This document shows positions 17,266-32,611 of a stretch of 44,212 bases of DNA, piece after piece. The notes under the pieces are model-generated. The model was not told where the DNA came from, did no database searches, and saw nothing but the letters and a program-made list of their open reading frames with translations. This DNA is from Ruminococcus flavefaciens (GTDB lineage: Bacteria; Bacillota; Clostridia; Oscillospirales; Ruminococcaceae). Every line of letters starts with the position of its first letter. The first letter of the stretch is position 1. A program made the translations under genes and the position numbers. The stretch spans positions 1,032,569-1,076,780 of the forward strand of contig JAMPAU010000001.1 in NCBI GenBank assembly GCA_023667045.1, written 5' to 3'.

Positions 17266-17871
17266 AACGAAAGGGAAACAGAGTTACAGAAGTTTCCTAA
17301 AAGCTGAATTTGCTTGGTCTGAGGTTTTCCTCAATGTGAATTAATTAAAGCGGAAAGGAAAGTGAGTCCGATGGAGTGTACAGAAAAACAGCAGATTGAA
17401 GCCGGCGGGCTTGCTGTATGGTTGAAATGATATAAGAGGGAATATAGGCTTTTATGCTTGTTCCGGTGAATGAATAATATGATATTTTAATTTCAATCGT
17501 AAAGCTGACGTATTGCTGACTTTGGAAAATGGTTTCATATCTGAAAGAAAAAAGATACAGGATTATCTGAAATTATGACGATTAGTCTTTAGATACATGA
17601 CCTTAAAAAATTCTGATGTAAGGATTGATTCCAATGAGAAGAAATGTTATCTTTTAATTTCACAGTGCGAAAGGTGAACATTACGCTCCGGACATAGTGC
17701 GGTTCGGGCAGTATGATTAAAAGGTGATACCGATGAATAATATGATTCTGCTAAAAAACTGAAAGGACTGAGTCCCAAAAAGTAATTCGGCACGGCAATG
17801 AAAGTTGCCATTGATACAACTGAATAAAACAAAAATTTCCTCAGCATATTACGGCTGAGGTTTTTTGTTTT
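17266..17871 (+). ncRNA. Candidate large structured non-coding RNA (~600 nt)
   Basis: The region between a near-consensus promoter and a perfect intrinsic terminator holds no reading frame of credible length on this strand; the longest ATG frame with an SD encodes only 19 codons (17371-17430). Local hairpins are visible: TGAGG-TTTT-CCTCA (17320-17333), GGACTGAGTCC (~17765), GGCAA...TTGCC (~17800). Internal sequence repeats occur: the 14-mer ATGAATAATATGAT at 17470-17483 and 17733-17746, and TTTTAATTTCA at 17485-17495 and 17652-17662. There is no tmRNA 3' tRNA-like end or tag frame, and no RNase P core that I can recognise. The length and host lineage fit ROOL-type RNAs (rumen-originating, ornate, large), but I cannot verify homology. 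Confidence 0.6.
17839..17871 (+). terminator. Terminator of the ncRNA, overlapping the rarA 3' end
   Basis: CCTCAGC...GCTGAGG hairpin followed by TTTTTTGTTTT. The convergent rarA stop codon (17849-17851) lies in its loop. Confidence 0.88.
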
Positions 17872-19141
17872 GTTCGGAGCTTTCTGTGATTTTCTGCCGA
17901 TATAGCATGGCAGACTGCTCCTGTTTGTTGTCTCCGAAATGATAATACACGTGGTCGGCGATAGTGTCCGGAAGATACTGCTGTTTTACATAGTGATTCG
18001 GAAAATTATGCGGATAAAGATAGTTCTGACCGGAGACTTCCGCACCCTTGCCGTCAAAATGCATATTCTGTAAATGTCGTGGAAAGTCAAGAGAGCCATA
18101 TTTTTTTACGTCGTCAATTGCAGAGTTTATCGCCGTGTATACGCTGTTGGACTTTGGTGCGGTGGCAAGAAGTATTACCGCCTCTGCTATTGGAAGTCTT
18201 GCCTCTGGAAGTCCGAGCTGTAAAGCCGAATCAACGCAAGCCTTTGTTATCACGACAGCCTGAGGGTAGGCAAGTCCCACGTCCTCTGAGGCTATGCACA
18301 GCAAACGTCTGCACAGTGGCAGTATATCTCCGGCTTCAATTAACCGTGAGGCATAGTGCAGTGCGGCGTTTTCGTCAGAACCCCTAACAGACTTATGAAA
18401 AGCTGAAAGTATATCATAATGCTGGTCGCCGTCACGGTCGTAACGCATATTGCTTTTTTGTGCAATAATTTTAAGCGAATCTGTAGTTACGGTTATTTTT
18501 CCGCCGGATTCTTCACCACATATGAAGGCAAGTTCAGCGGTATTCATGGCTTTTCGGACATCTCCGCCACAGTTTCGGGCTATGATATTCAGCGTTTCTT
18601 CGTTGTATACGATTTCTGTGTTGTTTTCTTCCGAGATAATCCGGAAAGCTCTTTTTACAGCCGGAATAATACTCTCCGGAGTTACAGGCTTGAACTCAAA
18701 AACCGTACATCTGCTTATTATTGCACTGTACACCGAAAAGTACGGATTTTCAGTGGTAGAAGCTATAAGCGTTATATCGCCGTTTTCTATGTACTCAAGG
18801 AGTGTCTGCTGTTGTTTTTTGTTGAGGTACTGAATTTCATCGAGATACAGCAGTATGCCGTTTTCCGTGCCGAAAGTCCCTATATCCGCTATAACGTCCT
18901 TTATGTCTGAGACAGACGCTGTAGTGCCGTTGAGACGGTGCAGTGTCATTCCGCAGTTTTCGGCTATGATTCGTGCAACGGTAGTTTTTCCCACGCCGGA
19001 ACTACCATAAAATATCATATTCGGGACTTTTCCGCTTTCTATAATACGTCTGAGAGGTTTTCCGGCTGATAGTATATGTTCCTGTCCCACGACTTCATCA
19101 AGTGTGCGTGGACGTATTCTGTCTGCTAATGGTGATGGCAT
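17849..19141 (-). CDS. rarA: Replication-associated recombination protein A (RarA/MgsA)
   Basis: 430-aa AAA+ ATPase related to clamp loaders and RuvB, active at stalled replication forks. The N-terminus PLADRIRPRTLDEVVGQEHIL is diagnostic. Walker A is GSSGVGKT (46-53), Walker B ILLYLDEIQ (~100), and sensor 1 STTENPYFSV. The C-terminal tetramerisation domain contains RLLCIASEDVGLAYP and the end section SLDFPRHLQNMHFDGKGAEVSGQNYLYPHNF. ATG at 19141 is chosen because AAAGGAAAGG precedes it and the protein then begins at the family's usual residue; a longer frame to 19210 overlaps the preceding terminator and gene. The upstream operon ends at the hairpin 19172-19199, so rarA may be partly read-through. 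Confidence 0.92.
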   Translation of the reverse strand: MPSPLADRIRPRTLDEVVGQEHILSAGKPLRRIIESGKVPNMIFYGSSGVGKTTVARIIAENCGMTLHRLNGTTASVSDIKDVIADIGTFGTENGILLYLDEIQYLNKKQQQTLLEYIENGDITLIASTTENPYFSVYSAIISRCTVFEFKPVTPESIIPAVKRAFRIISEENNTEIVYNEETLNIIARNCGGDVRKAMNTAELAFICGEESGGKITVTTDSLKIIAQKSNMRYDRDGDQHYDILSAFHKSVRGSDENAALHYASRLIEAGDILPLCRRLLCIASEDVGLAYPQAVVITKACVDSALQLGLPEARLPIAEAVILLATAPKSNSVYTAINSAIDDVKKYGSLDFPRHLQNMHFDGKGAEVSGQNYLYPHNFPNHYVKQQYLPDTIADHVYYHFGDNKQEQSAMLYRQKITESSEQNKKPQP

Positions 19142-19171
19142 ATTTACCTTTCCTTTCTGTGATAAAAGATT

Positions 19172-19199
19172 AAGAGCGTTATTTATTTTTAACGCTCTT
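19172..19199 (-). terminator. Terminator of the Hsp70/AAA+ operon
   Basis: Perfect 9-bp stem AAGAGCGTT / AACGCTCTT. On the minus strand it is followed by AATCTTTT, a modest T-tail. It lies just after the stop of the last gene at 19207. Confidence 0.6.
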
Positions 19200-19206
19200 G
19201 TATACA

Positions 19207-20355
19207 TCAATAGAAATCAATATAATATTCGTCAACCCAGCCGTAATAATCGCCGTCGTCTGTGTCCCATAGTTCGTACCATGTAACATTATACGATTCG
19301 CATTTATTCTTAGCGGTAACGTGCCACTGGTCGCCGAGTGATTTTCTGACGAGATTTTTTTTGCTGAACTCTTTAAACTCTGAAACATAGTCGGTCGGGA
19401 ATCCGGCTACAGTAACGCCGTGACAGTTAATCTGACCTTTCATGTTGCTTACTGGCACTATTTCGGCAGGTTCGGACGGATAAAAGTATATATATTCCTC
19501 ATCAACCCAGCCGTAGTAATCTCCGCTGTCTGTGTCGTATAGTTCGTACCATGTAACGCTGTATGATGTGAAAATACTCCGTGCAGTGACGTGCAGACCG
19601 TTTGTGAGCTTTTTGGTGACGTATGAGCAGTCACCGCCATCAACAACATAGTCGCTTGTATAGCCAGATATATTGTCACCTTTGGTGATAATCTGACCCT
19701 CTAATCTGTCAATTCTTTCATCTGCTGAAACAATCGCTGTAGTAGATGTGGAAACAGTAGTAGTTGTAGTAGTTTCCGTAGTAGTGGAAGAAACAGTAGT
19801 CTGAGTAGTTGTAGTAGTAGATGTGGTAGTTGTTGTGGTTGTTGTGGTAGAAGTAGTGGTTGTTGTTACGGTAGTAGTTTCTGTTGTGGGAACGGTTGTA
19901 GCTGTGGTAAGTATTAATGACTCTGCTGAATTGTTATTGTTATTCACAAGAATGCTGTCTGTTTTTTCGGTAGCACTCTGGTCAAAGAAATATCTGTACG
20001 CCATAAATCCCATAGCCCCTACAATAGCCACAGACATAACCCCTATTACTCTCAGCGGAGTTTTTGACTTTTTTCTTCTTTTCGGTACAATTACAGGAGT
20101 ATCAGACGAATCAGAGGTAGGGGAATGCAACTGCCTTTGATTTCTTTCGATAGATATAAGTTCAGACTTTGCCTCGTCCAGTTTCTTTTTCGTTTTTATC
20201 TCTTGTATTTTAAATTCCTGTGTTTTAAGATGTGCTATATAGTTTTGTTTTTCAGCCTTGAAACGCTTTCTGACTGATTTTAGGGAGTATTTTTTCAGCG
20301 GTTCAGAGGATTCCGTGTCAGTGCTGATATTATAAATATGCGATTTATTATTCAT
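19207..20355 (-). CDS. Membrane-anchored protein with two SH3-like repeats on a Thr-rich stalk
   Basis: 382 aa. Residues 1-100 are cytoplasmic, basic, with a predicted coiled coil (~30-75: FKAEKQNYIAHLKTQEFKIQEIKTKKKLDEAKSELISI). One membrane segment spans ~101-123 (LRVIGVMSVAIVGAMGFMAYRYF). Residues ~150-215 are an almost pure Thr linker. Two repeats follow (~222-298 and ~305-382), each with GxxTDYV...HVTA...S(Y)xVTWYEL(Y/W)DTD.GDYYGWVDE.YI.FY, looking like bacterial SH3-type modules. It is the last gene of the operon, 21 bp after the AAA+ gene. The topology (coiled coil inside, SH3 outside) suggests a connector between the cytoplasmic machine and the cell wall. Exact function unknown. Confidence 0.75.
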   Translation of the reverse strand: MNNKSHIYNISTDTESSEPLKKYSLKSVRKRFKAEKQNYIAHLKTQEFKIQEIKTKKKLDEAKSELISIERNQRQLHSPTSDSSDTPVIVPKRRKKSKTPLRVIGVMSVAIVGAMGFMAYRYFFDQSATEKTDSILVNNNNNSAESLILTTATTVPTTETTTVTTTTTSTTTTTTTTTSTTTTTQTTVSSTTTETTTTTTVSTSTTAIVSADERIDRLEGQIITKGDNISGYTSDYVVDGGDCSYVTKKLTNGLHVTARSIFTSYSVTWYELYDTDSGDYYGWVDEEYIYFYPSEPAEIVPVSNMKGQINCHGVTVAGFPTDYVSEFKEFSKKNLVRKSLGDQWHVTAKNKCESYNVTWYELWDTDDGDYYGWVDEYYIDFY

Positions 20356-20376
20356 TTGATACCTGCCATTTCTGAT

Positions 20377-22992
20377 TTAACCCACACGGGTATCGTCAAT
20401 CAAATCACGGGTTATGAGCAGACGTTCACGCTCACCGCAATTATTATTATAGTCATAACTGTCAGCCTCATAAGCGGAACGCACAAGCTTGTCAAAATAG
20501 CCTTTTATGTCTGCACCGGAAGGCATATATCTCTGTGAATTTACTTCAAATATTCTTTTCAGCTTGTCTTCAATGTCGCTGTCATCAAAACTGTTTATGA
20601 TAAACTGCTCAATGTACTGCATTCTGAAAGAGTGCTGTTTACCTTTCTGAGTTTCACGGACAAGTTTTTCATAGGCGTATTCAATATCCTCACTGCTGAA
20701 AGACAGATGCTCCTGTTGTTCGCAAAACATCTTCATCATTCTTATGCCGTCATAGCGTGCAGGGTTGCTCATTTCAAATTTTTCATCTATACGACCCTCA
20801 CGAATCATAGCTTCATCGAGCTTTTCATAGAAGTTGGTAGCACCGACAAAAAGCACTTTAGTTTCCGGATTACGCAGGGTTTTTTCGTCGTCAAGCTGAG
20901 TGAGCATAGTACCACGTATGCGTGAATCAAGCCTTTCGGAAGAAGCGAGCGAATCAAATTCATCAAAGAAAAGCAGTACGCCTTTTTCCTTTGTACACAT
21001 TTCCGACAGCTGTAATGCACCGTCAAAAATCTCGATAAGAGTTTTGTTCTGTTCGCTGGGACTGATTTTGGTGAAAACGTCGCTTGTTATTTTCATAAAG
21101 TAAAGGTTGTTCTTTTTTGCGGCAGCCTCAGCGAGCTTGGACTTGCCGTTTCCGGGAGGACCATAAAGCAGTATTCCCTTTTTTGGCTTTATCTTGTAGT
21201 ACTCTGCTTTTTCACGTTCTTTTCTGTCAAACATTCTTACTTGATTGTCAATAGCCTTTTTTTCTGTCTCATAACCTATGATAGTGTCATATGACTGCCG
21301 ACAGCTTGCAGAATCGAGAATCCTTATATTCAGCTTATCCTGAAGTCTTTTCACCCTGTCGTTTTCAAATATATTCAGAGTGGTGTCAAAAAGTTCCTTT
21401 ATTTCGTCCTCTTTTTTATACGAGGAAATCAGCCGACCTTTTAGCATGGCATTCTGTTCAAGCTTGTCCACGAAGTCTTTTATATCTCTGCCGGAAAGCC
21501 TGTTGGTTTTTGCTATGAAATCGGTCTTGAAAGAGAAGTCTCTGAATCCCACCATGCCTTTTTTTATTAGGTTCTTGTCAAAGAGCCTTTCCCTGTTTAC
21601 AGCGTCGGGCAGGGGAATTTCAACAGGAGTGCCGAGACGGCTTTTTATTGCACTGTCAAGAACATTCACCCTGTTTGTAGCAGCGATAACAAAAACTTTG
21701 CTGTTTCCGGTGGTGAGACCGTCCATTTCAACAAGGAACTGATTAACCATATCCTTTGCGAAACTGTCGCTGTCTCCGGAGCTTCCGTCAAAGTCACGGC
21801 TCGGAAATACAGTATCAGCCTCGTCTATGAATATGATAGCCGGTTCGCAGGCTCTTGCTTTCTGGAAAAGCCTTTTTACTTTCGGGCTTGTCTGACCCAC
21901 GTATTCGCCTTTCAAATCAGAGAGAGAGGGATTAAGAAAATGACAGTTTTTGTCGTTTGCCAGTGCCTTTACTAAAAAGGTCTTGCCTGTGCCAGAAGGA
22001 CCTGTGAGAATAAGACCCTTTGTAAGCGAAAGAGTTTTCTGACCGTCGGCTTTAAGAAATTCGTCTATCTGACCGCTTATTTTAAGCTTTATACGCTCGT
22101 CAAGTACAACGTCGTCGAGGGTTACTTTTTCCTCAATTATTTTATCCAGCGTTTCTTCAAAGTCGTTTCTGCTTATCCGGTTGTCTGTTTTCTGCATGAC
22201 GTTTCTGAATACTTTTATTGATTCGTTAAGCGATTTTTCGCCGGAGGCTACAGCGTCGGAAATATCACGCAGTTCCTTAAATTCTTCTGAGTTTATTGTT
22301 TTTCTGTACTGACGGAGATATATACGCAGGTAGGTATAATAAACCTCGTCGGGATTGGGCGATGCAATCATGCTGACATTTTTTCCGTCGAGATTGAAAT
22401 TGTACTTGCGTAGCATATTTACTTCTTCTATGCTCACCGTGACGACAACGTTTTTCAGCTTGCATAAATCCTTGAGCTTTTCTATGTAGCTGAGACAGTC
22501 GTCGTTAGAGCCTTTATAAAGTCCGGTAGTCCATTCATAGTCCTCAAAGAAGAATATAATTTTTCTGTCGGGATTCTGCTGACTGTATCTTACTGATTTA
22601 AGGAAATAGTTTTCAGATTCAGAGTTGGAGTTTTCCTGTGCAGTAGATTCTGCCGTATTGTCATTGGCTTTTAAAGTTTCATCATCAGCGTCATCAAGAC
22701 TGAGGTCATCGGAGTCGTCGCCGGCTGTTGCTTGACCGTTAAACATCTCGTTGCACAGTATGAAACTTCCGTTAAGAAATCTGTAAGTTTCAAAGCTGTC
22801 GTTTTTGATGTAGACGAAATAATCATATCCACGCTCGGCAAGGAAGTATCTTCTGAGGGTTTCTTTCATACTGCAAACGCCTGTATACAGATTATACATA
22901 AAGAGGTCGTGGATATATTCGCCGTACATAATGAAGAAGTTTTCGCCCTTCTCCATTTCTTTTCTTATATTTTCAATGATTCTGTTTTCCAT
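20377..22992 (-). CDS. Double AAA+ ATPase with novel N-terminal region
   Basis: 871 aa, soluble. AAA domain 1, ~295-525: Walker A GPSGTGKT (331-338), Walker B IIFIDEAD (386-393), sensor AATN (437-440). AAA domain 2, ~565-815: Walker A GPPGNGKS (611-618), Walker B LLFFDEFD (673-680), GATN (717-720), and REGRID (731-736) with the arginine pair. Both are classic AAA (Cdc48/FtsH/spastin-like) modules, expected to form a hexameric translocase or unfoldase. The first 290 residues are unlike Cdc48 N-domains. They contain IIFFFEDYEW (145-154), which resembles a Walker B, and an early FFIMYGE strand without a P-loop, so a degenerate third AAA-like fold is possible. An acidic insert lies at 91-130. The ATG directly follows the stop of the preceding gene. 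Confidence 0.85.
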   Translation of the reverse strand: MENRIIENIRKEMEKGENFFIMYGEYIHDLFMYNLYTGVCSMKETLRRYFLAERGYDYFVYIKNDSFETYRFLNGSFILCNEMFNGQATAGDDSDDLSLDDADDETLKANDNTAESTAQENSNSESENYFLKSVRYSQQNPDRKIIFFFEDYEWTTGLYKGSNDDCLSYIEKLKDLCKLKNVVVTVSIEEVNMLRKYNFNLDGKNVSMIASPNPDEVYYTYLRIYLRQYRKTINSEEFKELRDISDAVASGEKSLNESIKVFRNVMQKTDNRISRNDFEETLDKIIEEKVTLDDVVLDERIKLKISGQIDEFLKADGQKTLSLTKGLILTGPSGTGKTFLVKALANDKNCHFLNPSLSDLKGEYVGQTSPKVKRLFQKARACEPAIIFIDEADTVFPSRDFDGSSGDSDSFAKDMVNQFLVEMDGLTTGNSKVFVIAATNRVNVLDSAIKSRLGTPVEIPLPDAVNRERLFDKNLIKKGMVGFRDFSFKTDFIAKTNRLSGRDIKDFVDKLEQNAMLKGRLISSYKKEDEIKELFDTTLNIFENDRVKRLQDKLNIRILDSASCRQSYDTIIGYETEKKAIDNQVRMFDRKEREKAEYYKIKPKKGILLYGPPGNGKSKLAEAAAKKNNLYFMKITSDVFTKISPSEQNKTLIEIFDGALQLSEMCTKEKGVLLFFDEFDSLASSERLDSRIRGTMLTQLDDEKTLRNPETKVLFVGATNFYEKLDEAMIREGRIDEKFEMSNPARYDGIRMMKMFCEQQEHLSFSSEDIEYAYEKLVRETQKGKQHSFRMQYIEQFIINSFDDSDIEDKLKRIFEVNSQRYMPSGADIKGYFDKLVRSAYEADSYDYNNNCGERERLLITRDLIDDTRVG

Positions 22993-23739
22993 TTAGTCTG
23001 CCTCATCATCGGGAAGTGTTGCGATAACCTTTGAAAGTTCTTTCAGAGCCTTGTTAAACTTCTGATTGTCCGGATTTCCTATATTTTCAAGTTCTTCCTT
23101 TAGCCTGTTTAGTTCTTCCTCATTTTCCTTAGATTTTTTAACAATGGAATTTCTTTCAGCCTGTAATTCTTCTTTCCGGCGTTTAAGTTCCTCGTCGCTT
23201 GTATTTAAGTAGAGTTCTTCAATTTCACGTTTCAGTCCGTCAAGTTCTCTGATTATACCGGATTTTTCCTTTTGCAGTTCAATAAGCCTGTCACGTTCTT
23301 TTTTCTGTTCTTTTCTTTCTGCCTCATAGTCTTGAATCTCGTCAATTAGCTGGCTGTTGAGGCTGTCGAAACTCACCTTACGCATAGAGCTTATCATTCT
23401 TCTGAAATGTTTCTGCATAGTTTCAGTAATATCAAACCATTCAGAGATATTTTCAGAAAAGTCCTCATTGCCGAAATTAGCTTTATTAAATTCATCGGTG
23501 AAAATATCATCAAGGATTTTAGCAGAGACAGGATAAAACATCACAAGCCCCTTGATATATTCAAGCTGTTTTTCCTTTGGAAATCCGGTGATTATCTTTG
23601 CGATTGTCTGGTGGTATCTGTCAATGTAGTCAAGTATTTTAGGTTTTGCTATTTCATGGAGTGAAAGGTCGTCGTCTGTGCATGAGGCAATAGTTTGTAT
23701 TGCGTCAAGCACGGCATTCTGTATTAATTCTTCTTCCAT
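22993..23739 (-). CDS. Coiled-coil protein of the Hsp70/AAA+ operon (248 aa)
   Basis: Not recognised by family. Residues 1-120 are helical and acidic (EEELIQNAVLDAIQTIASC...KPKILDYIDRYHQTIAKIITGFPKEKQLEYIKGLVMFYPVSAKILDDIF). Residues ~122-235 form a long charged coiled coil (QDYEAERKEQKKERDRLIELQKEK...). ATG has GGGAGGAAATT upstream. It ends exactly where the AAA+ ATPase begins, so translation is coupled. By analogy with adaptor proteins of AAA+ machines it may be a partner or recruiter of the ATPase; this is inference from position and shape. Confidence 0.75.
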   Translation of the reverse strand: MEEELIQNAVLDAIQTIASCTDDDLSLHEIAKPKILDYIDRYHQTIAKIITGFPKEKQLEYIKGLVMFYPVSAKILDDIFTDEFNKANFGNEDFSENISEWFDITETMQKHFRRMISSMRKVSFDSLNSQLIDEIQDYEAERKEQKKERDRLIELQKEKSGIIRELDGLKREIEELYLNTSDEELKRRKEELQAERNSIVKKSKENEEELNRLKEELENIGNPDNQKFNKALKELSKVIATLPDDEAD

Positions 23740-23753
23740 AATTTCCTCCCGTA

Positions 23754-25259
23754 TCAGTATACACTTCTTGATGCAGTATTTTCAGACTTTGCATTTGCGG
23801 GCGGAGTGCCGAAAATAGACCGTCCGTTTTTGGTGATGTCTTCTATAATAAGACCCTCTCCGGAGAGTTCGCTTCTTATGTCTTTCCACTTTGAACCGCA
23901 CGTACCTTTTGATGATTCCTTGTGGTCTATATCAATAACCGGTTGTCCGTCGTCAACCACAGATACCCTGTCATATTTTATAATCTCGTCTCCGGCGGTG
24001 CATTCAATGCAGTAGCCGTCATTTAGGAAGTCGCCGTTTTTCACTACTTTTACATCATAGTTCATTTTCAGCATGACTTTTTTTATACTCAGCATATTGT
24101 AGATAGTTTTCTTCATATTCTGGTGAACGAGAACCGCCTTGTTTGAGGCTTCTTCTATCAGATTGCTGAGGTCGGAAATATAGGATTCAGCGAGGTCAAA
24201 CTGTTCATTGTCGTACATTGCGTTTATCTGTGAGAGCCTGTCAGAAATAAGCTGAGGATAGTCTGTGTCGCTGTTTTTTTCAAGAAACTCCTGTAGGGTC
24301 ATTTTACTGCCACGCTTGTCTTCACGCTTAAATTCGTCTTCCGGATTTGAAAAAATCCTGTTGTCGAGCCTTTCGCATACGTTGTCAATCATAGACTTTA
24401 TCTGTCCTTGACGTTCAAGGAAAGCACTGTATACTTTATTCAGTTCACTGCTAAAAATGGATATTTCAGTTGACATGGCAGAATAACCGCTGATTACTTC
24501 GCTGTCTGACTTATTGAGGAATGTAAGTGTTTTTTCCGCAAGTATTTTGTAGTCTTCACTGAGGAATTTTCCGGCTGTTGCCTTGTCGATTTCAGTAAAT
24601 TCCTTGCGGATTGTATCTCTTGTGTCTTTAGCGTGTTTTCTTACTTCAATAGCTTCTTTTGATTTTTTAGTAATATCTGCCACAGAGCTGGCTATTTTTT
24701 TAAATTCAGACTTTTTGCTTTCGATAACAGATTCATTGTTTTTAGCCTTTGAGCATACCGATGTAAATTCACTGCGGACAGAATTTACAGCAGAGGAAAG
24801 ATTTCTGTATTCCTGTGCAATGTTTCCGGCACTTCTGTACTCGTCGTCACAGTACCAAGGGTCACTGTGTCTGCTGGTATGTATTTTGTCAGATATGCAT
24901 TTTCTTATGTCTTCTGCTCTCTTGTCGGTATCTTTATAACGGCTTAAAAGAGAAGTATAGGAGTTTTCGTTCACATCTACTATATAATTCTCTCTGCCGT
25001 TGTGAAATTCGCTTACAAAATCGTTGTATTCCTTTTCAAGCTTTTCGACAGCTTCCGGAAATTCATTTTTCACCTCGTCGGAAATAACCAGTTTAGCAGA
25101 TGGGATTTCCTTTTCTGCCTCATTGTAGGCTTTTTTTAGTCTGTTACAGGCAGACTGTGCTTTTTTGAATGCGTCGTTTAAAATATCCATAGAGGCACTG
25201 CGTGTATTTTCGCCGTTTCTGAGAAGTGCGTTTACCTCAGACGCTTTTTTTCCGCTCAT
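23754..25259 (-). CDS. Coiled-coil protein with C-terminal globular domain (501 aa)
   Basis: Mostly helical protein. Long amphipathic helices with spectrin-like breaks run through ~20-390, including several Ser-rich stretches. A compact C-terminal domain (~395-485) has alternating strands (NYDVKVVKNGDFLNDGYCIECTAGDEIIKYDRVSVVDDGQPVIDIDHKE, then SKWKDIRSELSGEGLIIEDITKNG). I recognise no family. The start overlaps the stop of the radical SAM gene by 4 bp (ATGA), and the next gene begins 14 bp after its stop. It is probably a structural or adaptor subunit of the same complex. Confidence 0.75.
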   Translation of the reverse strand: MSGKKASEVNALLRNGENTRSASMDILNDAFKKAQSACNRLKKAYNEAEKEIPSAKLVISDEVKNEFPEAVEKLEKEYNDFVSEFHNGRENYIVDVNENSYTSLLSRYKDTDKRAEDIRKCISDKIHTSRHSDPWYCDDEYRSAGNIAQEYRNLSSAVNSVRSEFTSVCSKAKNNESVIESKKSEFKKIASSVADITKKSKEAIEVRKHAKDTRDTIRKEFTEIDKATAGKFLSEDYKILAEKTLTFLNKSDSEVISGYSAMSTEISIFSSELNKVYSAFLERQGQIKSMIDNVCERLDNRIFSNPEDEFKREDKRGSKMTLQEFLEKNSDTDYPQLISDRLSQINAMYDNEQFDLAESYISDLSNLIEEASNKAVLVHQNMKKTIYNMLSIKKVMLKMNYDVKVVKNGDFLNDGYCIECTAGDEIIKYDRVSVVDDGQPVIDIDHKESSKGTCGSKWKDIRSELSGEGLIIEDITKNGRSIFGTPPANAKSENTASRSVY

Positions 25260-25852
25260 TCCAAATCCTCCAGTTCCCTTAAAAATTGACTGTAAAAGTC
25301 TTTTGGCGGTATACCTATAAAATATATTTCACCGTTGTCGTCTATTTCAAATGAGAAGTCCCTTTGCTTTGACGACAGGATTTTTTCAGCATAAGGCTTG
25401 TATTTTTCTGTAAAGAAATAAATATCTTGATTATCCGAACCCCTGTAAGCAGAACCGCTGTTCATTTCGTCTAAATATTCGCCGTCAACAAATATATCGA
25501 CATTGCGGAAAAATTCTTCTGAATCGGGGTACATGGCGAGTATTTCGCTGTAGGTATACCCCGAATAGAGCATTACATCAAGTTTGGTGTGTAATTTGAG
25601 CAGGGTTATGAGTTCTTTAAGTTCATTGTATTGAAGAAAAGGCTCGCCACCGCTGACAGTTATTCCGCATATGTCGTCAAGAGAGGTTATGCAGTTTATT
25701 ATTTCTTTAACGCTTTTTGTGTAGCCTCCGCTGAATTTTCTGCCCTCCGGATTTATGCAGTTAGGGCAGTTTTTTTTACAGCCTTGAACCCAGATTACAT
25801 AGCGTTTTCCAGGTCCGAGACTGTTTGTTATAGATTCGTGACTTATTCTCAT
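25256..25852 (-). CDS. NrdG-like radical SAM protein
   Basis: 198 aa. Canonical radical SAM motif CX3CX2C at Cys25, Cys29, Cys32 (VQGCKKNCPNCINPEGRKF), preceded by GPGKRYVIWVQGC as in NrdG-type activases, and the SAM-binding GGE motif (68-70, TVSGGEPFLQ). This group binds one [4Fe-4S] cluster and makes a 5'-deoxyadenosyl radical. NrdG-like members usually activate a glycyl radical enzyme, but none is encoded in this operon. It could therefore modify a neighbouring protein or act on a partner elsewhere. ATG overlaps the upstream stop (TAATG) and its own stop overlaps the next ATG, so its expression is tightly coupled to the coiled-coil genes. Confidence 0.85.
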   Translation of the reverse strand: MRISHESITNSLGPGKRYVIWVQGCKKNCPNCINPEGRKFSGGYTKSVKEIINCITSLDDICGITVSGGEPFLQYNELKELITLLKLHTKLDVMLYSGYTYSEILAMYPDSEEFFRNVDIFVDGEYLDEMNSGSAYRGSDNQDIYFFTEKYKPYAEKILSSKQRDFSFEIDDNGEIYFIGIPPKDFYSQFLRELEDLE

Positions 25853-27747
25853 TATTCAGCAGATACTATAGCTTTCTTGTCAATAGAGCCGTCGTCTTTT
25901 CTGCGGAGAGCAGGCACATATATGGCGTTGGCATTCCAGAAGTCCGTCCTTCTTGGTTCGGAGAGGTCTTTCATGTTAGCCCTCTTGAAATCAATACTGT
26001 TAGTGCCGTCAAGACCCAAATCATCGAGAGCCTTACCGCCGTAATATTCGTTTACAGCCTTGATAAGATTTCGCTCGTCTTCTGTGAGGGTTTCCTGATG
26101 TTTGTTTCTGTATGTTTCAAGAGAATTATATACTACTCTTGCAAAGCCGTAATCAGCAGAGAAGTATGTTATGAACTTGATAAGGTCTTTAAAGGGCAGT
26201 AAGCCGGCGTCTTCCTTAACCTGTATGCCCATTTCGTTGTAAGCCCAGTCCATAGACTTTTGGCACTTATACATAAGGTTGTAGATTTTGCAGTAGTCGC
26301 TTACAGATTCGTCATGCTTTGAGATAGTATCGTTTACTGTTTTGAGTTCGGCATTGAGACTGTCAATAGTATTGTTGCGTTCTGTAATGGTATTGTTAGC
26401 GGTTGCGAGGTTATTTTCGAGCCTTTCAATTTCGCTGTCACGGTCTGCAATAGTTCTGTTAGCGGATTCTATGTTGGCTTTAAGAGTTTCGATTGTCTTA
26501 TTGCGGTCTTTTATACTATCGTTGGCTTCTTTGAGGTTATTATTTAAAGTCTGGATAGTGCGGTTGCGTTGTTCAATGGTGTCATTGGCGTTTCTGATGT
26601 CATTTTTGAGTGATTCTATTTTTTCCTCACGGTCTTGAATGTAATCATTAGCTTCATCAAGATTTACTCCAAGACGAGTTATTGTTTCATTACGTATTAC
26701 AATAGTGTCATTTGCTTTTTTAAGCTGTTCATTGAGGTCAGCGATTTTTTCGTTACGCTCATCAATAGTCTCGTTTGCGTTTCTGAGGTCATTTTTGAGA
26801 GATTCTATTTCGTCGTCACGTTCTTCAATGCTTTTTTTTGCATTGGACAGTGAAACAGTGAGGTCTTCAATAGTCTCGTTGCAGTTTTGGATAGTAGACT
26901 TAGCTTTTTCAAGTTTTTCGGCGAGTGTATCAATAGTTTCGTTACGCTCATCAATGGTCTCGTTGGCGTTTTTGAGGTCGTTTTCGAGTGATTCTATTTT
27001 TCTGTCAAGCTTTTCGATTTCTTCGGAGTGCTGATTCTGAAGTTCCTGTGTTTTGAGGTCAAAATCTTCCCTATATGTTTCAAGCTCAGATTCTGCCGAT
27101 TTCAGCTTGGTGGACAGCTTGTCATTTTCGCTGTAAACTTCGTCAGTTTCGGCGTGAAGTTCTTCCAGTTTGTCTTTTATCTTGTCGAGTTCAGACTTGA
27201 GAGCCTTGTTTTCAGCGGTCAGTTTATCTACCTTTTCCAGAGCCTCATCTGCGGACTGGTGGGTTTCTTCCAGTTCATCTTCAGTTTTCTGTAGTTTGGT
27301 TTCTGTTTTTTCAAGCTTGTTTTTCAGCCTGTCACGCTCGTCATAAACTTCGTCAGCCTCGTCATGCAGTTCTTCGAGTTCTTTTTTAGCTTTTCTGATT
27401 TCTTTCTTCAGAGACTCGACCGTGCTGTCTGAGTATTCATTGTCTGAGGTGGTATTTTCTGCGGATATTTCCGCCGACTTACTAGACTGTGTCTTGCTCA
27501 AATCAGAAACTTTTTTGTCAAGCTCCTCTAATTTAGGGAGAACAATTTCTTTTATCAGCTTTAGTACTTCGTTGTCCTTGCTGGAAGAATATTTGTCCAG
27601 TTCATCATCAAAGGAATGTGAGTTGGATTCAAAGAAATCCATATCCAGTTCATTATTTTTGGTTGTATCGTCCAAATCTTCCATAGAAGAAGTTTTTTCA
27701 GATTCTTTTTGGCTGTTGTAAGTGGCGTGCCTGTATTGTTTTGCCAT
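25852..27747 (-). CDS. 631-aa coiled-coil protein with ten 21-residue repeats
   Basis: Residues 1-110 are acidic and Ser-rich. Residues ~109-260 form a coiled coil containing modules ELEELHDEADEVYDERDRLK and a variant with HAETDEVYSENDK. Residues 261-470 form ten tandem 21-residue units, each beginning AN-x-(T/S)-I-x-x-R-(N/D) and continuing x-x-I-x-x-L. Twenty-one residues are exactly three heptads, so the array makes a continuous coiled coil of roughly 30 nm. Residues ~484-631 are a globular C-terminal domain (CKIYNLMYKCQKSMDWAYNEMGIQ...). No membrane segment. AAGGAG precedes the ATG. It is likely the scaffold of the operon. Function unknown; homologs would need a search limited to the C-terminal domain. 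Confidence 0.85.
   Translation of the reverse strand: MAKQYRHATYNSQKESEKTSSMEDLDDTTKNNELDMDFFESNSHSFDDELDKYSSSKDNEVLKLIKEIVLPKLEELDKKVSDLSKTQSSKSAEISAENTTSDNEYSDSTVESLKKEIRKAKKELEELHDEADEVYDERDRLKNKLEKTETKLQKTEDELEETHQSADEALEKVDKLTAENKALKSELDKIKDKLEELHAETDEVYSENDKLSTKLKSAESELETYREDFDLKTQELQNQHSEEIEKLDRKIESLENDLKNANETIDERNETIDTLAEKLEKAKSTIQNCNETIEDLTVSLSNAKKSIEERDDEIESLKNDLRNANETIDERNEKIADLNEQLKKANDTIVIRNETITRLGVNLDEANDYIQDREEKIESLKNDIRNANDTIEQRNRTIQTLNNNLKEANDSIKDRNKTIETLKANIESANRTIADRDSEIERLENNLATANNTITERNNTIDSLNAELKTVNDTISKHDESVSDYCKIYNLMYKCQKSMDWAYNEMGIQVKEDAGLLPFKDLIKFITYFSADYGFARVVYNSLETYRNKHQETLTEDERNLIKAVNEYYGGKALDDLGLDGTNSIDFKRANMKDLSEPRRTDFWNANAIYVPALRRKDDGSIDKKAIVSAE
26338..26967 (-). 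repeat. 63-bp tandem coding repeat (ten units)
   Basis: Ten in-frame units of 63 bp inside the 631-aa coiled-coil gene. DNA identity between units is partial, while the protein pattern AN..I..RN..I..L...L is kept, so the array is old and under selection for heptads. Confidence 0.85.
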
Positions 27748-27767
27748 GTTTTTATAATCTCCTTCCG

Positions 27768-28214
27768 TTAATTTTCGGGGTCAGCGTGAAATTTTTTCAG
27801 TTCTTCTTCTGCTATTTTCAGACTGATTTTCAGCCTGTCACGCTCGTCATAAACCTTGTCAGCCTCGTCATGCAGTTCTTCGAGTTCTTTTTTAGTTTGT
27901 CTGAGTTCTTTGTCACGTTCTGCAATAATGCTGTGCTTTTTTTCAAGTTCTTCAGTGAGTGTATCAATAGTTTCGTTATGCTTATCAATAATCTTACTGA
28001 AACTTTTAGGGTCATTTTTGAGGTCTTCAATAATTTCCTTATAGCGTTCAATGGTAATGTAAGATGTGTAAAGCCTTTCAGTGAGGGTATCAATAGTTTC
28101 GTTACACTCATCAATGGTGCTGTTGGCGTTTCTGAGGTCATTTCTGAGAGAATCTATTTCGTCCTTAAGAATATGGTTATATTTATGAAGTAAATCTTCA
28201 ATTGATTTAGACAT
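27768..28214 (-). CDS. Small coiled-coil paralog A (148 aa)
   Basis: Almost entirely coiled coil. Residues 1-95 contain two units related to the 21-residue repeat of the 631-aa protein (RNDLRNANSTIDECNETIDTL). The C-terminal half carries ELEELHDEADKVYDERDRLK and ends KISLKIAEEELKKFHADPEN, nearly the same as paralog B. AAGGAGATTATGA precedes the ATG, and this leader is repeated before paralog B. It probably arose by duplication and may co-assemble with the long protein. There is no catalytic motif. Confidence 0.78.
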   Translation of the reverse strand: MSKSIEDLLHKYNHILKDEIDSLRNDLRNANSTIDECNETIDTLTERLYTSYITIERYKEIIEDLKNDPKSFSKIIDKHNETIDTLTEELEKKHSIIAERDKELRQTKKELEELHDEADKVYDERDRLKISLKIAEEELKKFHADPEN

Positions 28215-28230
28215 TCATAATCTCCTTTCG

Positions 28231-28740
28231 TCAGTTTATGAGGTCAGCGTGCAGTTTTTTCAGTTCTTCTTCTGCTATTTTCAGACTGATTTTCAGCCTG
28301 TCACGCTCGTCATAAACCTTGTCAGCCTCGCTGTGCAGTTCTTCGAGTTCCTTTTCAAGCTTTGCAGTAATTTTGTCAGCGGTCTGTAGCTTTTCTGTGA
28401 GGTCAGCTATTGTTTCATCACGTTCTGCAATATCGCTGTTGGCTTTTTCAAGTTTTTCTTTGAGGTCTGTAATAGTTTCCTCATGCTTTGCAATAGTGCT
28501 GTGGGCTTTGTCAAGCTTGTGTTTCAGCCTGTCACGCTTATCATAAACTTCGTCAGCCTCGTCATGTAGTTCTTCGAGTTCTTTTTTAGCTTTTCTGAGG
28601 TCTTTCTTTAAAGACTCGACCGTGCTGTTCTTCGAGTTTTTTTTTGCTTTTCTAAGTTCTTTGGTACGATTTGCAATATAGTTGTCGACTTCGTCAACAC
28701 TTATGAGAGGCAGTTCAACACCAGAAAAGTAATCAGGCAT
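28231..28740 (-). CDS. Small coiled-coil paralog B (169 aa)
   Basis: Short unique N-terminus (MPDYFSGVELPLISVDEVDNYIANRTKE), then coiled coil. Two copies of the EELH(D/S)EAD(E/K)VYD(E/K)RDRLK module (~78-97 and ~134-153) flank two units of the 21-residue type (AHSTIAKHEETITDL, ANSDIAERDETIADL). It ends KISLKIAEEELKKLHADLIN. The unique N-terminus may be a targeting or binding peptide. Upstream is a broken copy of the same gene with the same 3' end. Confidence 0.78.
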   Translation of the reverse strand: MPDYFSGVELPLISVDEVDNYIANRTKELRKAKKNSKNSTVESLKKDLRKAKKELEELHDEADEVYDKRDRLKHKLDKAHSTIAKHEETITDLKEKLEKANSDIAERDETIADLTEKLQTADKITAKLEKELEELHSEADKVYDERDRLKISLKIAEEELKKLHADLIN

Positions 28741-28756
28741 TCATAATCTCCTTTCG

Positions 28757-28970
28757 TCAGTTTATGAGGTCAGCGTGAAGTTTTTTCAGTTCTTCTTCTG
28801 CTATTTGCAGACTGACTTTCAGCCTGTCACGCTCGTCATAAACCTCGTCAGCCTCGCTGTGCAGTTCTTCGAGTTCCTTTTAAAGCCTTGCAGTAGTTTT
28901 GTTAGCTGTCTGTAGTTTTTCGTTAAGTTTTTCGTTTGTTGCACTCTGCAATGGTATTGTTTGAACTCAT
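28757..28970 (-). pseudogene. Broken third small coiled-coil paralog
   Basis: The ATG at 28970 has a good SD, but its frame stops after 15 codons. Shifting frame recovers EKLNEKLQTANKTTARL, a TAA where paralog B has GAA (Glu), and then ELEELHSEADEVYDERDRLK...EEELKKLHADLIN to the stop at 28757. It thus carries at least one frameshift and one nonsense mutation compared with paralog B. The flanking leader sequence is repeated before paralogs A and B. The gene lies 16 bp after the Hsp70-like gene. Confidence 0.85.
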
Positions 28971-28986
28971 TAATAATCTCCTTGTG

Positions 28987-31536
28987 TCAGTTTCTGAGGT
29001 CAGCGTCAAATTCGCCCGTCTTGACATCTATAGTATGGATTTCGGGATTTTCGCTCACAGAATCGCCGTTTACTATGCAGTACTCTATAGTGTGTTCGTT
29101 TTTGATACGGATAAATATAGTATAGCCACGAGCGTCGGGGGTGCTGATGAGCAGGGGCTTTTCGTTTTTGGTTTTGACTTCACGGAATTCAATATCAGTT
29201 TCGTTTTTGAGAATCTTTCTGAATTTAACCCACTCTGAGCTTTCGGGGTCAACTTCAATCTCCTTGAATTTATTAGCACTGGTAAATCCGATAAAGTACT
29301 TGAATTTAGCTTCGTCGCCGTAAACCTGCATATCGCTGAGACAGAGCTGACCGAGAGCCACTGCTGTTTTAGGAGTAACGGCATAACGGGGGTTTGTCTC
29401 TGTCTGGTCTTCAATCTGGTCAACAAGCTGTATTCTGTTGTTTGTGAAATTTTCTTTAAATTTCTTTTCCATGCTTTCTCGTACTATCTTACTTCTTGAA
29501 CTGTTTCCTGCTCTGAAGATATACACTTCTGATTTATTATAGTAAGGAGTATTCTTGAAAGCAATATCCATTTCCTGAGAGAATATCTCGATTTTTTCCT
29601 TAATGATATTATCAATATATCCCTCTATGTCGTCACGGTCAACGCTGAAACGTATATCGTCTATGGCAGTGCCATTGCATGAATACATAGTCACCTTGTC
29701 TTGTTCATTGTAGCTTTTTCCCTCAAAGATTTTTCTTGAGATTCTTTCGCTTATTACGTTGAGGTTAGCCTTTGCGTCGCTTGACCTGCTGTTAAGCCTT
29801 GACGGAAGTTCAGCCGGAACTTTTTCACCGAAAGGAATTTTAATCGGTATGTCGTTTTCAATCATAAGATTGATATTTTCGCAGTAGATTTTATAGGAAA
29901 CTTTCTCAATGATTCTTTCACCGCCTGCATCATCAAAGCCGTTTGTTCTCTTGATTGTTATAGCTGGTACATCGTATTCCTCGTCCATAGTAAGCTCGCC
30001 AAAAGAGAAGTCCAGAGTACCACCGCCGAAATCATACACGGCAAATAATGTTTTCTGGTCGTATTCAACAGGCAGATAATCAGTACCGCATATTGCACCG
30101 ATATATGCAACAGGCTCTGCATTTTCCATTTTTACATCAACCTTGTCACGCAGGGTTTTTGGCACAGAACGCTGAATACCGTATTTAAGAGAATTTGAAA
30201 TAAGCTGTTTTATTTCTTCATTGAATTTTACAGGGGAGGTAATGCGGAAATTAATATGAATTTTTCCCTCTACTACATTGTTTACACAGCGACCGATAAG
30301 ATAGCCGTAAAAAGCTACAGGGTCGAAATGATTTTCATTCTGCTTTTTTGGGTCATCAACGATATAAACGTATTCGTCTGTCTTGTCATACGGAATAACC
30401 TGTGGTTCTTCCTTTTCAATTTCAATCTGATAAGGGGTCATCTTGAGCAGGGTCTGTATAGAATCGAGCTGTCTCTTTTCGGCTGGTTCTTCACCGGCGA
30501 GTACTTCCTTTACGGTATAGCCGAAATCAAAATCAGACTTTAGACCCTCTCCGGTATTTGCATTGCGGAGATGAGACTGGAAACTTCCCTTTACAATAGC
30601 GGGTACATTGTTTGTATCTTCAATCCATTCCCTGTAAACGCTTTTCCAGTCGTAGACCATTATATTTGTAGGGTTTTCAAAAATATTCTCGCCGTCAACG
30701 CTTTCCACTTCACAGAGGCTTTTGAGTTCTTTCTGACCGTCGTCGTTTATATAGGCAACGCATGATGAGGAAGTACCGAAATCTACAGAAACAATATGTC
30801 TGTCTATTCTGTCGCATACGTCGTATTCTGTATTAATGAAGGCTATCTTTATTTCGCTCTGTATTATCTTTTCTATGCTTGATGTCATATCCGAGAGAAC
30901 TTCAATGTAGCCGGACAATGTGAGATATTTCTTGTTCTGAAATTCTCCTGAGAATACTGCACTTATAGCGTCAGTATTAAATTCAACGATAGCCTGATTT
31001 CTTGAATTGACAATAACATAGCCCTCTGAGCAGAGGTCTTCCGGCAGATTCATTGAGTCGGCTTTATTGAAGACAATGCGTACTTTCTTTTCTTTTTCGG
31101 GACAGAAAGTTCTTTCAATCAAAACCAGTATTTTCCTTTTGCCCATATTTGTCCAGAGACCAGCCTTTGAGTCGCAGAGATTCTGCATACGTATGGGTTC
31201 ATAGTTTAAGAGAAGATTTTCTGTAATATCGCAGTATTCAATTTTCGGGAAAGTTGCGGTTGTCTTTGCCTCGACTGCACGTATTATATCCTGCTCTGTG
31301 AGTTCGTTGATTTTTGCAAGCACAGCCTCTTTGCCCTCGAATACTTCCGTATCGAATGTATCATCAGTTACATTCTGATAAAAGATTTTCATTGCAGAGT
31401 TAGGGAGGAGTTTTTCACAATCATAGTCAATATCATTTATTGCTCTTGACTTTCCTCTTACTCTGTATACAATGGCGGACGCTGTGTTTTTGTCGATATT
31501 TTCAAGACAAAGCTGTTTGATTTTCGGGCTTCCCAT
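28987..31536 (-). CDS. Hsp70/actin-fold ATPase with long N-terminal extension
   Basis: 849 aa. Residues 1-245 are an unrecognised N-terminal region. The Hsp70-like nucleotide-binding domain spans ~247-735. Phosphate-1 motif is VDFGTSSSCVAY (251-262), phosphate-2 is YDFGGGTLDFSFG (501-513), and the adenosine motif is IFRAGNSSRS (673-682). The last ~115 residues are beta-rich and too short for a DnaK substrate-binding domain with lid; no EEVD-type tail. Such proteins switch conformation with ATP, typically as chaperones or scaffolds. A strong SD (AGGAGG) precedes the ATG, which overlaps the upstream stop (TAATG). It is the second gene of the operon. Partners are probably the neighbouring coiled-coil and AAA+ proteins; this is inference from gene order. 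Confidence 0.85.
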   Translation of the reverse strand: MGSPKIKQLCLENIDKNTASAIVYRVRGKSRAINDIDYDCEKLLPNSAMKIFYQNVTDDTFDTEVFEGKEAVLAKINELTEQDIIRAVEAKTTATFPKIEYCDITENLLLNYEPIRMQNLCDSKAGLWTNMGKRKILVLIERTFCPEKEKKVRIVFNKADSMNLPEDLCSEGYVIVNSRNQAIVEFNTDAISAVFSGEFQNKKYLTLSGYIEVLSDMTSSIEKIIQSEIKIAFINTEYDVCDRIDRHIVSVDFGTSSSCVAYINDDGQKELKSLCEVESVDGENIFENPTNIMVYDWKSVYREWIEDTNNVPAIVKGSFQSHLRNANTGEGLKSDFDFGYTVKEVLAGEEPAEKRQLDSIQTLLKMTPYQIEIEKEEPQVIPYDKTDEYVYIVDDPKKQNENHFDPVAFYGYLIGRCVNNVVEGKIHINFRITSPVKFNEEIKQLISNSLKYGIQRSVPKTLRDKVDVKMENAEPVAYIGAICGTDYLPVEYDQKTLFAVYDFGGGTLDFSFGELTMDEEYDVPAITIKRTNGFDDAGGERIIEKVSYKIYCENINLMIENDIPIKIPFGEKVPAELPSRLNSRSSDAKANLNVISERISRKIFEGKSYNEQDKVTMYSCNGTAIDDIRFSVDRDDIEGYIDNIIKEKIEIFSQEMDIAFKNTPYYNKSEVYIFRAGNSSRSKIVRESMEKKFKENFTNNRIQLVDQIEDQTETNPRYAVTPKTAVALGQLCLSDMQVYGDEAKFKYFIGFTSANKFKEIEVDPESSEWVKFRKILKNETDIEFREVKTKNEKPLLISTPDARGYTIFIRIKNEHTIEYCIVNGDSVSENPEIHTIDVKTGEFDADLRN

Positions 31537-32312
31537 TAATAATTTCCTCCTAAGTTAATAGTTCTGATTTTTTCATACATACCGAATATTTTGTTTTTAT
31601 TTTCTGCATATAGCTTTGCTACTCCGATTAAAAGGGCGTATTCTTTTTTTGAGTCGTATCTTCCGCAGGAGATAAGAAACAAAATATCCTTGAGTATACA
31701 ATCTCTTATTTTTTGGTTTTTTATCTTGTCAAAATAATTATTCAGACTGTTTTTTTTATATTTTGAATTGCAGTATTCGTACATAATTTCAATATAGTTC
31801 TGATATTGTATGCCGAAATTATAGAGCATTTCACGGATATGAATAAGCTGTCCGGCAGTAAATCCGGTACAGCCGTATACATTGAAGAAAACAAGTATAG
31901 TCTTTATGTACCGGCTTTTATCTTCTCTGCCTAAGTCTTTTGCAGGGTGGTAAAACTCACGTTTCCAGCGGTAATCAAGCAATAGCATAAGGTCTTTCAT
32001 AAGGCTTTCAGATACAGATGTAATCATTGCATCGCTGTTTATTTTTATTACAGCCTCAAGTTTGTCTCCGGCATAGTTAACAGGAAACCACACATTGCAT
32101 CTTGCTTTTTTGTTGCTGTACTTTATGCTCAGTCCCTCGTCGTGTTCCCTGTCGAGCGTTATTTTTTCTGAATGTTTTTTGAAGAATCCGTCAAGGTCTT
32201 CTGAATAGCGGTTTACAAGGAACTGTGCCGTAATATTCTGGTCTATAATATCATCAGAATAATATATTTTGTCTTTTTTTCTTTTCCATAGGTCAAAGTC
32301 AAGCAGTGAAAT
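31536..32312 (-). CDS. First gene of the Hsp70/AAA+ operon, unknown, probable AUU start
   Basis: Not recognised. From conventional starts the frame begins at GTG 32093 (185 aa), but no SD is there and the frame is open 73 codons further, back to TAA at 32313-32315. Directly after that TAA is ATT (32310-32312), preceded by AAGGGGG (32321-32327) at 8 nt. An AUU start would give 258 aa beginning SLLDFDLWKRKKDKIYYSDDIIDQ after Met. The upstream part has protein-like composition and no breaks. The body is mixed alpha/beta at first, then helical (TILVFFNVYGCTGF, IREMLYNFGIQYQNYIEIMYEY). There is no membrane segment. The gene lies ~60 nt after the promoter and overlaps the Hsp70-like gene. Confidence 0.65.
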   Translation of the reverse strand: MSLLDFDLWKRKKDKIYYSDDIIDQNITAQFLVNRYSEDLDGFFKKHSEKITLDREHDEGLSIKYSNKKARCNVWFPVNYAGDKLEAVIKINSDAMITSVSESLMKDLMLLLDYRWKREFYHPAKDLGREDKSRYIKTILVFFNVYGCTGFTAGQLIHIREMLYNFGIQYQNYIEIMYEYCNSKYKKNSLNNYFDKIKNQKIRDCILKDILFLISCGRYDSKKEYALLIGVAKLYAENKNKIFGMYEKIRTINLGGNY

Positions 32313-32379
32313 TTAAAAAACCCCCTTAATTAACAATTTGTTAAAATATACCAAAACGCAGTATTCATGCATTTTGTTT

Positions 32380-32408
32380 ATTATATCATATTAACCAAAA
32401 GCAGTCAA
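32380..32408 (-). promoter_or_regulatory. SigA promoter of the Hsp70/AAA+ operon
   Basis: Minus strand TTGACT, 17-bp spacer, TATAAT. Predicted start near 32373. No operator-like inverted repeat is obvious. Confidence 0.85.
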
Positions 32409-32546
32409 GTAGCAAATCAAATTTTCTGCATTAAAATTATATTTCTACATATTATACAAATTTAAGGCGGTTTTTTGTCTTGCTTTAACAGCATTTTTGC
32501 ATACGATATAAAAGGCTGAATATTTGTGCGGATTTTATGCAAATAC

Positions 32547-32575
32547 TTGACATTTAAGGACAAATATAGTATAAT
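32547..32575 (+). promoter_or_regulatory. SigA promoter of the pectate lyase gene
   Basis: TTGACA, 17-bp spacer, TATAAT, perfect hexamers, ~37 bp before the ATG. Between this and the divergent operon promoter (32409-32546) I see only AT-rich sequence. Confidence 0.88.
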
Positions 32576-32611
32576 TATACATACTAAATATTTTAAAAGG
32601 AGGATTTCCAT

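Follow-up and report, generated by a model that had tools for sequence, protein, structure and literature searches.

The window analysed here, a stretch of 44,212 nucleotides from Ruminococcus flavefaciens, carries on its minus strand an operon of about 13 kb (19207-32312) in which genes for an Hsp70-like ATPase, a Cdc48/p97-type ATPase and a radical-SAM enzyme are combined with an array of coiled-coil genes and a putative membrane protein. Its gene order, promoter, terminator and purifying selection are shared with a second species, an uncultured Ruminococcus MAG (L002), which supports the view, already put forward in a preliminary description of this DNA, that the operon forms one functional unit. 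The best clue beyond that earlier reading appears to be a recurring link between radical-SAM and AAA+ genes. By its placement in phylogenetic trees, the radical-SAM enzyme of the operon, gene F, belongs to a little-noticed branch whose members often adjoin AAA+ genes. The operon may encode a single machine, tethered to the membrane and driven by ATP, that remodels proteins and includes its own protein-modifying enzyme. A conflict-type use would be the likeliest for it, and this reading is tentative, at a little less than an even chance. The features of the region, in descending order of coordinates, are as follows.

32380..32408, minus strand: promoter, TTGACT-17-TATAAT with a TG before the -10 hexamer, 11/12 consensus matches
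31536..32312, minus strand: gene A, 258 aa
28987..31536, minus strand: gene B, 849 aa, Hsp70-like ATPase
28757..28970, minus strand: broken coiled-coil gene copy with a stop after 15 codons, recognised by repeat comparison
28231..28740, minus strand: gene C, 169 aa, coiled coil
27768..28214, minus strand: gene D, 148 aa, coiled coil
25852..27747, minus strand: gene E, 631 aa, coiled coil whose C-terminal domain (about 145 aa) is conserved
25256..25852, minus strand: gene F, 198 aa, NrdG-like radical-SAM enzyme
23754..25259, minus strand: gene G, 501 aa, long-helical with a C-terminal beta part, from a structure model and comparison with L002
22993..23739, minus strand: gene H, 248 aa, C-terminal half coiled-coil-like
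20377..22992, minus strand: gene I, 871 aa, tandem AAA ATPase of the Cdc48/p97 type
19207..20355, minus strand: gene J, 382 aa, one hydrophobic span near residue 101, a Thr-rich linker and two SH3-like repeats recognised by eye
19172..19199, minus strand: terminator-like hairpin between the operon and rarA
17849..19141, minus strand: rarA, a downstream core gene outside the operon

The preliminary description had counted eleven collinear minus-strand frames, one of them broken, and the listing of open reading frames agrees, with ten intact frames and one broken coiled-coil copy within 19207-32312. Many of the junctions overlap or abut, as had also been described (for example at 31536, 25852, 25256/25259 and 22993/22992), and the widest intergenic gap, 28740-28987, is the one that contains the broken copy. 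The promoter has the same hexamers and spacing in L002 and ranks second among 42 promoter-like sites found in 17500-33000, where 32.6 were expected (sd 4.5). The strong site therefore stands as claimed, but three internal minus-strand sites at 29642, 25350 and 25006, with 10/12 matches each, leave the claim of a single promoter unproven. A hairpin at 32376-32352 lies just downstream of the promoter and overlaps the likely transcript start. At the other end of the operon, the hairpin reported after the last gene is present at 19199-19172 and is conserved in L002. The listed frame of rarA (17849-19210, TTG start) overlaps gene J; its start is most likely the ATG at 19141, behind the hairpin, which fits L002 better than the TTG. 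The 5' end of gene A at 32312 is an ATT immediately after a TAA, with no ATG, GTG or TTG there, and AAGGGGG stands eight bases upstream. The ATT behind this motif is the probable start of gene A. L002 has an upstream ATG in place of the ATT. The ATT may be a start codon of a rare kind, or else an error in the sequence.

L002 is the sole relative in which the operon was found, by one contig scan with short peptide patterns that detects close kin only. It has the order A-B-E-F-G-H-I-J-rarA, as in the window, and a single coiled-coil gene replaces C, D, E and the broken copy, so that C and D are without separate counterparts. Identity between the two species is 52% for A, 71% for B, 30% for E, 71% for F, 68% for G, 64% for H, 82% for I and 68% for the repeat part of J. 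The dN/dS ratios are 0.29 for A, 0.125 for B, 0.41 for E, 0.16 for F, 0.15 for G, 0.14 for H, 0.06 for I and 0.20 for J, and are rough because dS is near saturation (1.2-2.0 for the operon genes, similar to 1.4 for rarA). On these values the eight compared genes, a set that leaves out C and D, are evidently under purifying selection, and the operon divides into a constant core and variable coiled coils. The stretch 25852-28970 consists of tandem coiled-coil copies, one of them broken, with repeats up to 93% identical, where L002 has its single gene; 28735-28943 is 90% identical to 28209-28417. The low overall identity of gene E conceals a C-terminal part that is clearly more similar.

Genes A, G, H and J gave no Pfam match above cut-off. 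The structure model of gene G has a mean pLDDT of 63.7, with the C-terminal part below 50, and was used for helical character alone. Its residues 389-488 are identical to L002 at 98 of 100 positions despite 36 silent codon changes. Gene J had been described as a membrane protein with SH3-like repeats; it has one hydrophobic span, and the repeats were seen by eye and have no Pfam SH3 match. A crude hydropathy scan found no strongly hydrophobic stretch in genes B-I. PADLOC gave no match specific to the operon among its proteins: the matches of E, C and D were judged to be coiled-coil noise, and those of I (IetA, TRIP13) to be generic AAA.

Gene B is identified by its motifs as a remote Hsp70-like protein. 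The phosphate motifs reported earlier were verified (DFGTSS at 252 and DFGGGT at 502) and are followed by an adenosine motif (RAGNS at 675), in the order found in Hsp70. With DnaK/Hsp70 chaperones it therefore shares the phosphate and adenosine motifs and a weak DnaK match (NCBIfam), but it differs from them in about 245 extra residues that precede the first phosphate motif and in matching 0 Pfam families at E up to 1, hence not HSP70 (PF00012). An AlphaFold model built from two sequences reached a pLDDT of 32 and was set aside. The full-length protein occurs in 2/100 genus genomes, with remote kin in 4 more and in 8 further genomes among 297 of the family. In thirteen fetched stretches with such remote kin, some of them short contigs, A, F, I and J all went unmatched at E 0.1, and weak matches numbered three for G (E 0.005-0.06), two for H (0.05 and 0.09) and one for the E domain (0.06). 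The preliminary description had named homologues scattered without these neighbours as evidence against a dedicated system. Remote Hsp70 kin do occur without them, but the sole close copy keeps them.

Several of the remote Hsp70 kin L019-L028, which are of about 940-1100 aa, adjoin a smaller protein (about 240 aa) whose C-terminus looks similar by eye, and the three proteins of this group that were scanned have no Hsp70 Pfam match. A remote B homologue on an Acinetobacter piscicola plasmid (L191) adjoins HEPN, dynamin and integrase genes. Gene B was not found in phage records, and neither B nor I was found in viral contigs by a scan with two short peptide patterns each, which detects close kin only.

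Gene I matches AAA at E 2.4e-58 in two stretches. Its Walker A motifs at 331 and 611 and Walker B motifs at 386 and 673 confirm the AAA+ pair with two intact Walker sites that had been described, and its best solved-structure matches are p97/Cdc48. With Cdc48/p97 it shares a pair of classic AAA domains whose Walker sites are intact; it differs in its operon partners and in an N-terminal region of about 250 residues for which no Pfam match is listed. The N-terminal domain gives a weak profile match (probability 7-21%) to those of the other linked AAA+ proteins. As a tandem classic AAA protein closest to p97/Cdc48, gene I is ruled out as ClpB-like. With this motor and with a gene B that is remote and has no Pfam match, the suggested parallel to DnaK plus ClpB reduces to a loose analogy. 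Of the envelope-linked remodelling machine proposed earlier, the two ATP-driven machines within one unit remain and the ClpB likeness of the motor is lost.

Gene F has Fer4_12 and Radical_SAM matches and a CxxxCxxC motif at residue 25. In common with NrdG it has its superfamily, this motif and a match of 102.3 bits to the NrdG model TIGR02491; it differs in lying under the curated cut-off of 126.1, in having no NrdD alongside and in falling on the opposite side of a 96/90 branch in the tree considered below. NrdD has a single match in the genome, split into two pieces within one frame at C24:668789-670738, and its own NrdG, which passes the cut-off, lies with it; gene F is hence ruled out as the NrdD activase. 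The earlier observation of an NrdG-like enzyme lacking a glycyl-radical partner in the operon is therefore upheld, with NrdD lying elsewhere.

A search with gene F found matches in 254 of 321 class genomes; of those listed, 20 were fetched, for the most part the highest-scoring. NrdD lies within 1.5 kb in 15 of these, a short contig (L137) shows neither NrdD nor an AAA+ gene, and the remaining four (L126, L127, L128 and L140) have no NrdD and have AAA+ genes nearby; L127 also has a weak Hsp70-like gene, and L126 and L128 have kinase genes. When the L128 AAA protein was searched against phages, 147 records matched in part; the two annotated ones among the 15 listed are clpB, and the match was taken as generic. 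In a first tree of 26 rows, eight radical-SAM proteins from such operons fell on one side of a branch (94/88). A profile was built from these eight proteins and run on 329 phylum genomes, and the 16 top-ranking new matches from genomes other than that of the window served as a prospective test. Eleven lie 0-1 genes from an AAA+ gene (L175-L183, L185, L186) and five beside NrdD (L184, L187-L190); the eleven are not independent, with four from one genus and two from another. Searches of plasmids by tblastn gave 66 and 107 records, 15 and 20 of them listed, from which ten regions were chosen by hand, leaving out nrdG-annotated rows and some near-copies, with L195 and L201 still close kin. An AAA+ gene, by annotation or HMM, lies near the radical-SAM gene in 9/10, and the tenth region, from Geminocystis (L198), has two double-GTPase genes instead.

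In a radical-SAM tree of 51 rows (midpoint root), the 96/90 branch parts 25 rows, including gene F, from 26. The 26-row side holds all 21 NrdD-labelled rows, L137 and four AAA-linked rows (L183, L196, L199 and L200), and linkage and branch are hence not the same thing. On the 25-row side an AAA+ gene lies within 4.3 kb in 23/25; the exceptions are L198 and L094, which has Hsp70 genes on a contig that ends before any AAA+ gene. Tree labels were assigned manually to four rows, those of the window, L002, L085 and L094, the last of them wrongly as AAA, and L126 and L127 were labelled 'other' by a 3-kb limit, their AAA+ genes being at 3.3 and 4.2 kb. Among scored NrdD-linked rows an AAA+ match occurs in 0/20, the 21st being the genome's own NrdG, added by hand and unscored. 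Since the AAA models came from the linked operons, a separate control was made on the NrdD neighbourhoods, using the 101 proteins, NrdD excluded, whose frames are 150-1100 aa long and lie no farther than 4.3 kb from one of the 20 NrdD-linked genes. None of the 101 matches the four AAA models at E 0.01, the single Walker A pattern among them is an ArsA-like GKGGVGKT, and of the 99 families that Pfam gives at E 1e-10, the 25 most frequent include none of the AAA kind. The operon bears both marks of the AAA-linked branch, with gene F on the 25-row side and the AAA+ gene I in the same operon.

Three of the plasmid rows on the NrdG side have settings of their own. On pTRESU01 of Treponema succinifaciens (L199) the radical-SAM and AAA genes lie within a contractile-injection cluster. 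On the Paenarthrobacter and Paenibacillus plasmids (L196, L200) AAA, DUF2997 and radical-SAM genes are clustered, with DUF1257 too in L200.

The genome of the window has a second Hsp70/radical-SAM/tandem-AAA operon, on contig C101 (L085, G000:C101:28000-47999), behind a phage-type integrase. Its order is integrase, Hsp70 (512 aa), Hsp70-like (779), radical SAM (205), proteins of 235, 471 and 484 aa, tandem AAA (949) and a GTPase-like protein whose double-GTPase matches are below cut-off. Genome G274 has part of this gene set, and on a Calothrix plasmid consecutive genes encode Hsp70, a TPR protein, the radical-SAM enzyme, a protein of 494 aa, a tandem AAA and a coiled-coil protein. Profile comparisons found no homology of A, E, G and H to the C101, G274 and Calothrix proteins, so that what is shared is F and, broadly, Hsp70 and AAA+, and nothing more. 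A likeness of gene G to the 484-aa protein, noticed by eye, was unsupported by profile comparison, and gene J has no match in the C101 operon.

The operon is rare. Gene G occurs in 2/125 genus genomes and, among 391 class genomes, as a full match in its own genome alone; two weak partial matches (E 3e-7 and 2e-4) were taken as coiled-coil noise. A RarA query, for comparison, matches in 124/125 genus genomes, some of these being merely weak AAA matches. In two of the 12 fetched rarA regions (L066, L069) rarA directly adjoins a divergent lyase gene whose orthologue flanks the operon in the window, which indicates that the operon is accessory. It interrupts the rarA-lyase pair in the window, either by gain here or by loss there. 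The two operon carriers are not sisters in a rarA tree of 31 rows, a pattern that could reflect losses as well as transfer at one site. The neighbours of the operon are rarA and a pectate-lyase-like gene, with no evident defence island.

How the parts may work together can be sketched from their kinships. Gene F, a relative of activases that take hydrogen from a protein backbone, would modify a protein of the operon, and its likeliest target or dock would be the near-invariant C-terminal part of gene G. The Cdc48-like motor, gene I, may remodel the target to give F access, or free the modified form, with the Hsp70-like gene B as an ATP switch. The fast-changing coiled coils E, C and D would provide a variable sensing or scaffold part, and gene J may tether the machine to the membrane and present the complex to the cell wall. 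Its likeliest use would be a conflict-type response, in defence or in envelope stress. Long-lived glycyl radicals are unlikely in the hosts of the Calothrix, Rhizobium and Caballeronia plasmids; the presence of the branch on these plasmids argues against such a radical as the product and for a stable modification.

More widely, across Bacillota, Cyanobacteria and Proteobacteria, the NrdG-like radical-SAM branch may work with AAA+ unfoldases, partly together with Hsp70, with kinase/phosphatase/FHA modules or with double-GTPase modules. The motor would open a target for backbone modification and the operon would be the rare Hsp70 plus Cdc48-like form of an unnamed class, a proposal that is quite possible, if slightly less probable than its negation. 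If true, bacteria would possess a general way of linking the unfolding of proteins to radical chemistry performed on them, and many uncharacterised operons, with members annotated as '4Fe-4S single cluster domain-containing protein' or 'radical SAM protein', would become testable. Moreover, a modification step would be added to chaperone-based conflict systems, for which the radical-SAM effector in print, in the portion of that work drawn on here, has a predicted peptide target (PMC7159879).

Several other explanations can be set against the modifying machine. That the operon is a chance run of unrelated accessory genes might be suggested by the remote Hsp70 homologues that occur elsewhere without these neighbours, but the same order and boundaries persist in two species at dS 1.2-2.0 and the radical-SAM/AAA+ pairing recurs, and this very improbable explanation was rejected on the strength of the conserved order and boundaries. 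Hsp70 and AAA+ chaperones can partner in disaggregation, which, with the place of gene F in the activase superfamily, would suit a chaperone of stress or repair that rescues iron-sulphur or glycyl-radical proteins after damage, F being the reactivase. The operon is rare and accessory, however, and F's branch occurs on the plasmids of hosts in which glycyl radicals are unlikely, so that such a role is improbable.

The array of coiled coils and the hydrophobic span, Thr-rich linker and SH3-like repeats of gene J invite a role in the assembly of an envelope or surface structure, in which J would anchor, the coiled coils form a filament and the chaperones assemble it. The Treponema contractile-injection cluster also holds radical-SAM and AAA genes, its row being on the NrdG side. 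This role is unlikely, as B-I are without a strongly hydrophobic stretch in the crude scan and the C101 operon is without a J match. Defence against phages or mobile elements, with coiled coils that sense, Hsp70 and AAA+ that set a threshold and a modified protein as effector, is a possibility to be taken seriously, if a doubtful one. It would account for the patchy presence at one site and the variable coiled-coil module, and it is in keeping with the position of the C101 operon behind an integrase and its double-GTPase-like gene below cut-off, with the remote Hsp70 homologue beside HEPN, dynamin and integrase genes on the Acinetobacter plasmid, and with the prediction of chaperone-based conflict systems in the part of the literature drawn on (PMC7159879). 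Against it, no nuclease, toxin or nucleotide-signal gene is among the matches listed, and the location beside rarA and the pectate-lyase-like gene is no evident defence island.

As the preliminary description had supposed, no named system with this gene set was found in the open-licence literature. The closest account is that of Kaur et al. 2020, which, in the portion considered, predicts chaperone-based conflict systems that include double-GTPase systems with HSP70, as well as MoxR-vWA-FtsH systems with a radical-SAM component that is thought to modify a peptide effector (PMC7159879). With the FtsH ternary systems, as described there, the operon of the window shares a classic AAA ATPase and a radical-SAM enzyme; unlike them, it has no vWA and no protease domain among the matches listed, and gene I is Cdc48-like. 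Neither a MoxR ATPase nor a vWA protein is among the matches listed for the ten proteins (Pfam) or for seven of them (NCBIfam), and the best AAA match in the operon is classic AAA, not MoxR. With the DO-GTPase/GAP1 systems of the HSP70 theme, again as far as that portion of the source describes them, it has in common an HSP70 protein, sometimes two, and a constant core with variable parts, but no double-GTPase, GrpE or GAP1 is among the matches listed, of which there are 25 at most for the AAA and coiled-coil proteins. The best reading is therefore of an operon that appears conflict-system-like, without the defining genes of the described families among the matches listed. The C101 operon of the same genome stands nearer to the DO-GTPase/GAP1 systems as set out in that source (PMC7159879), with two HSP70 matches and a weak double-GTPase match, and its radical-SAM protein belongs to the branch of gene F.
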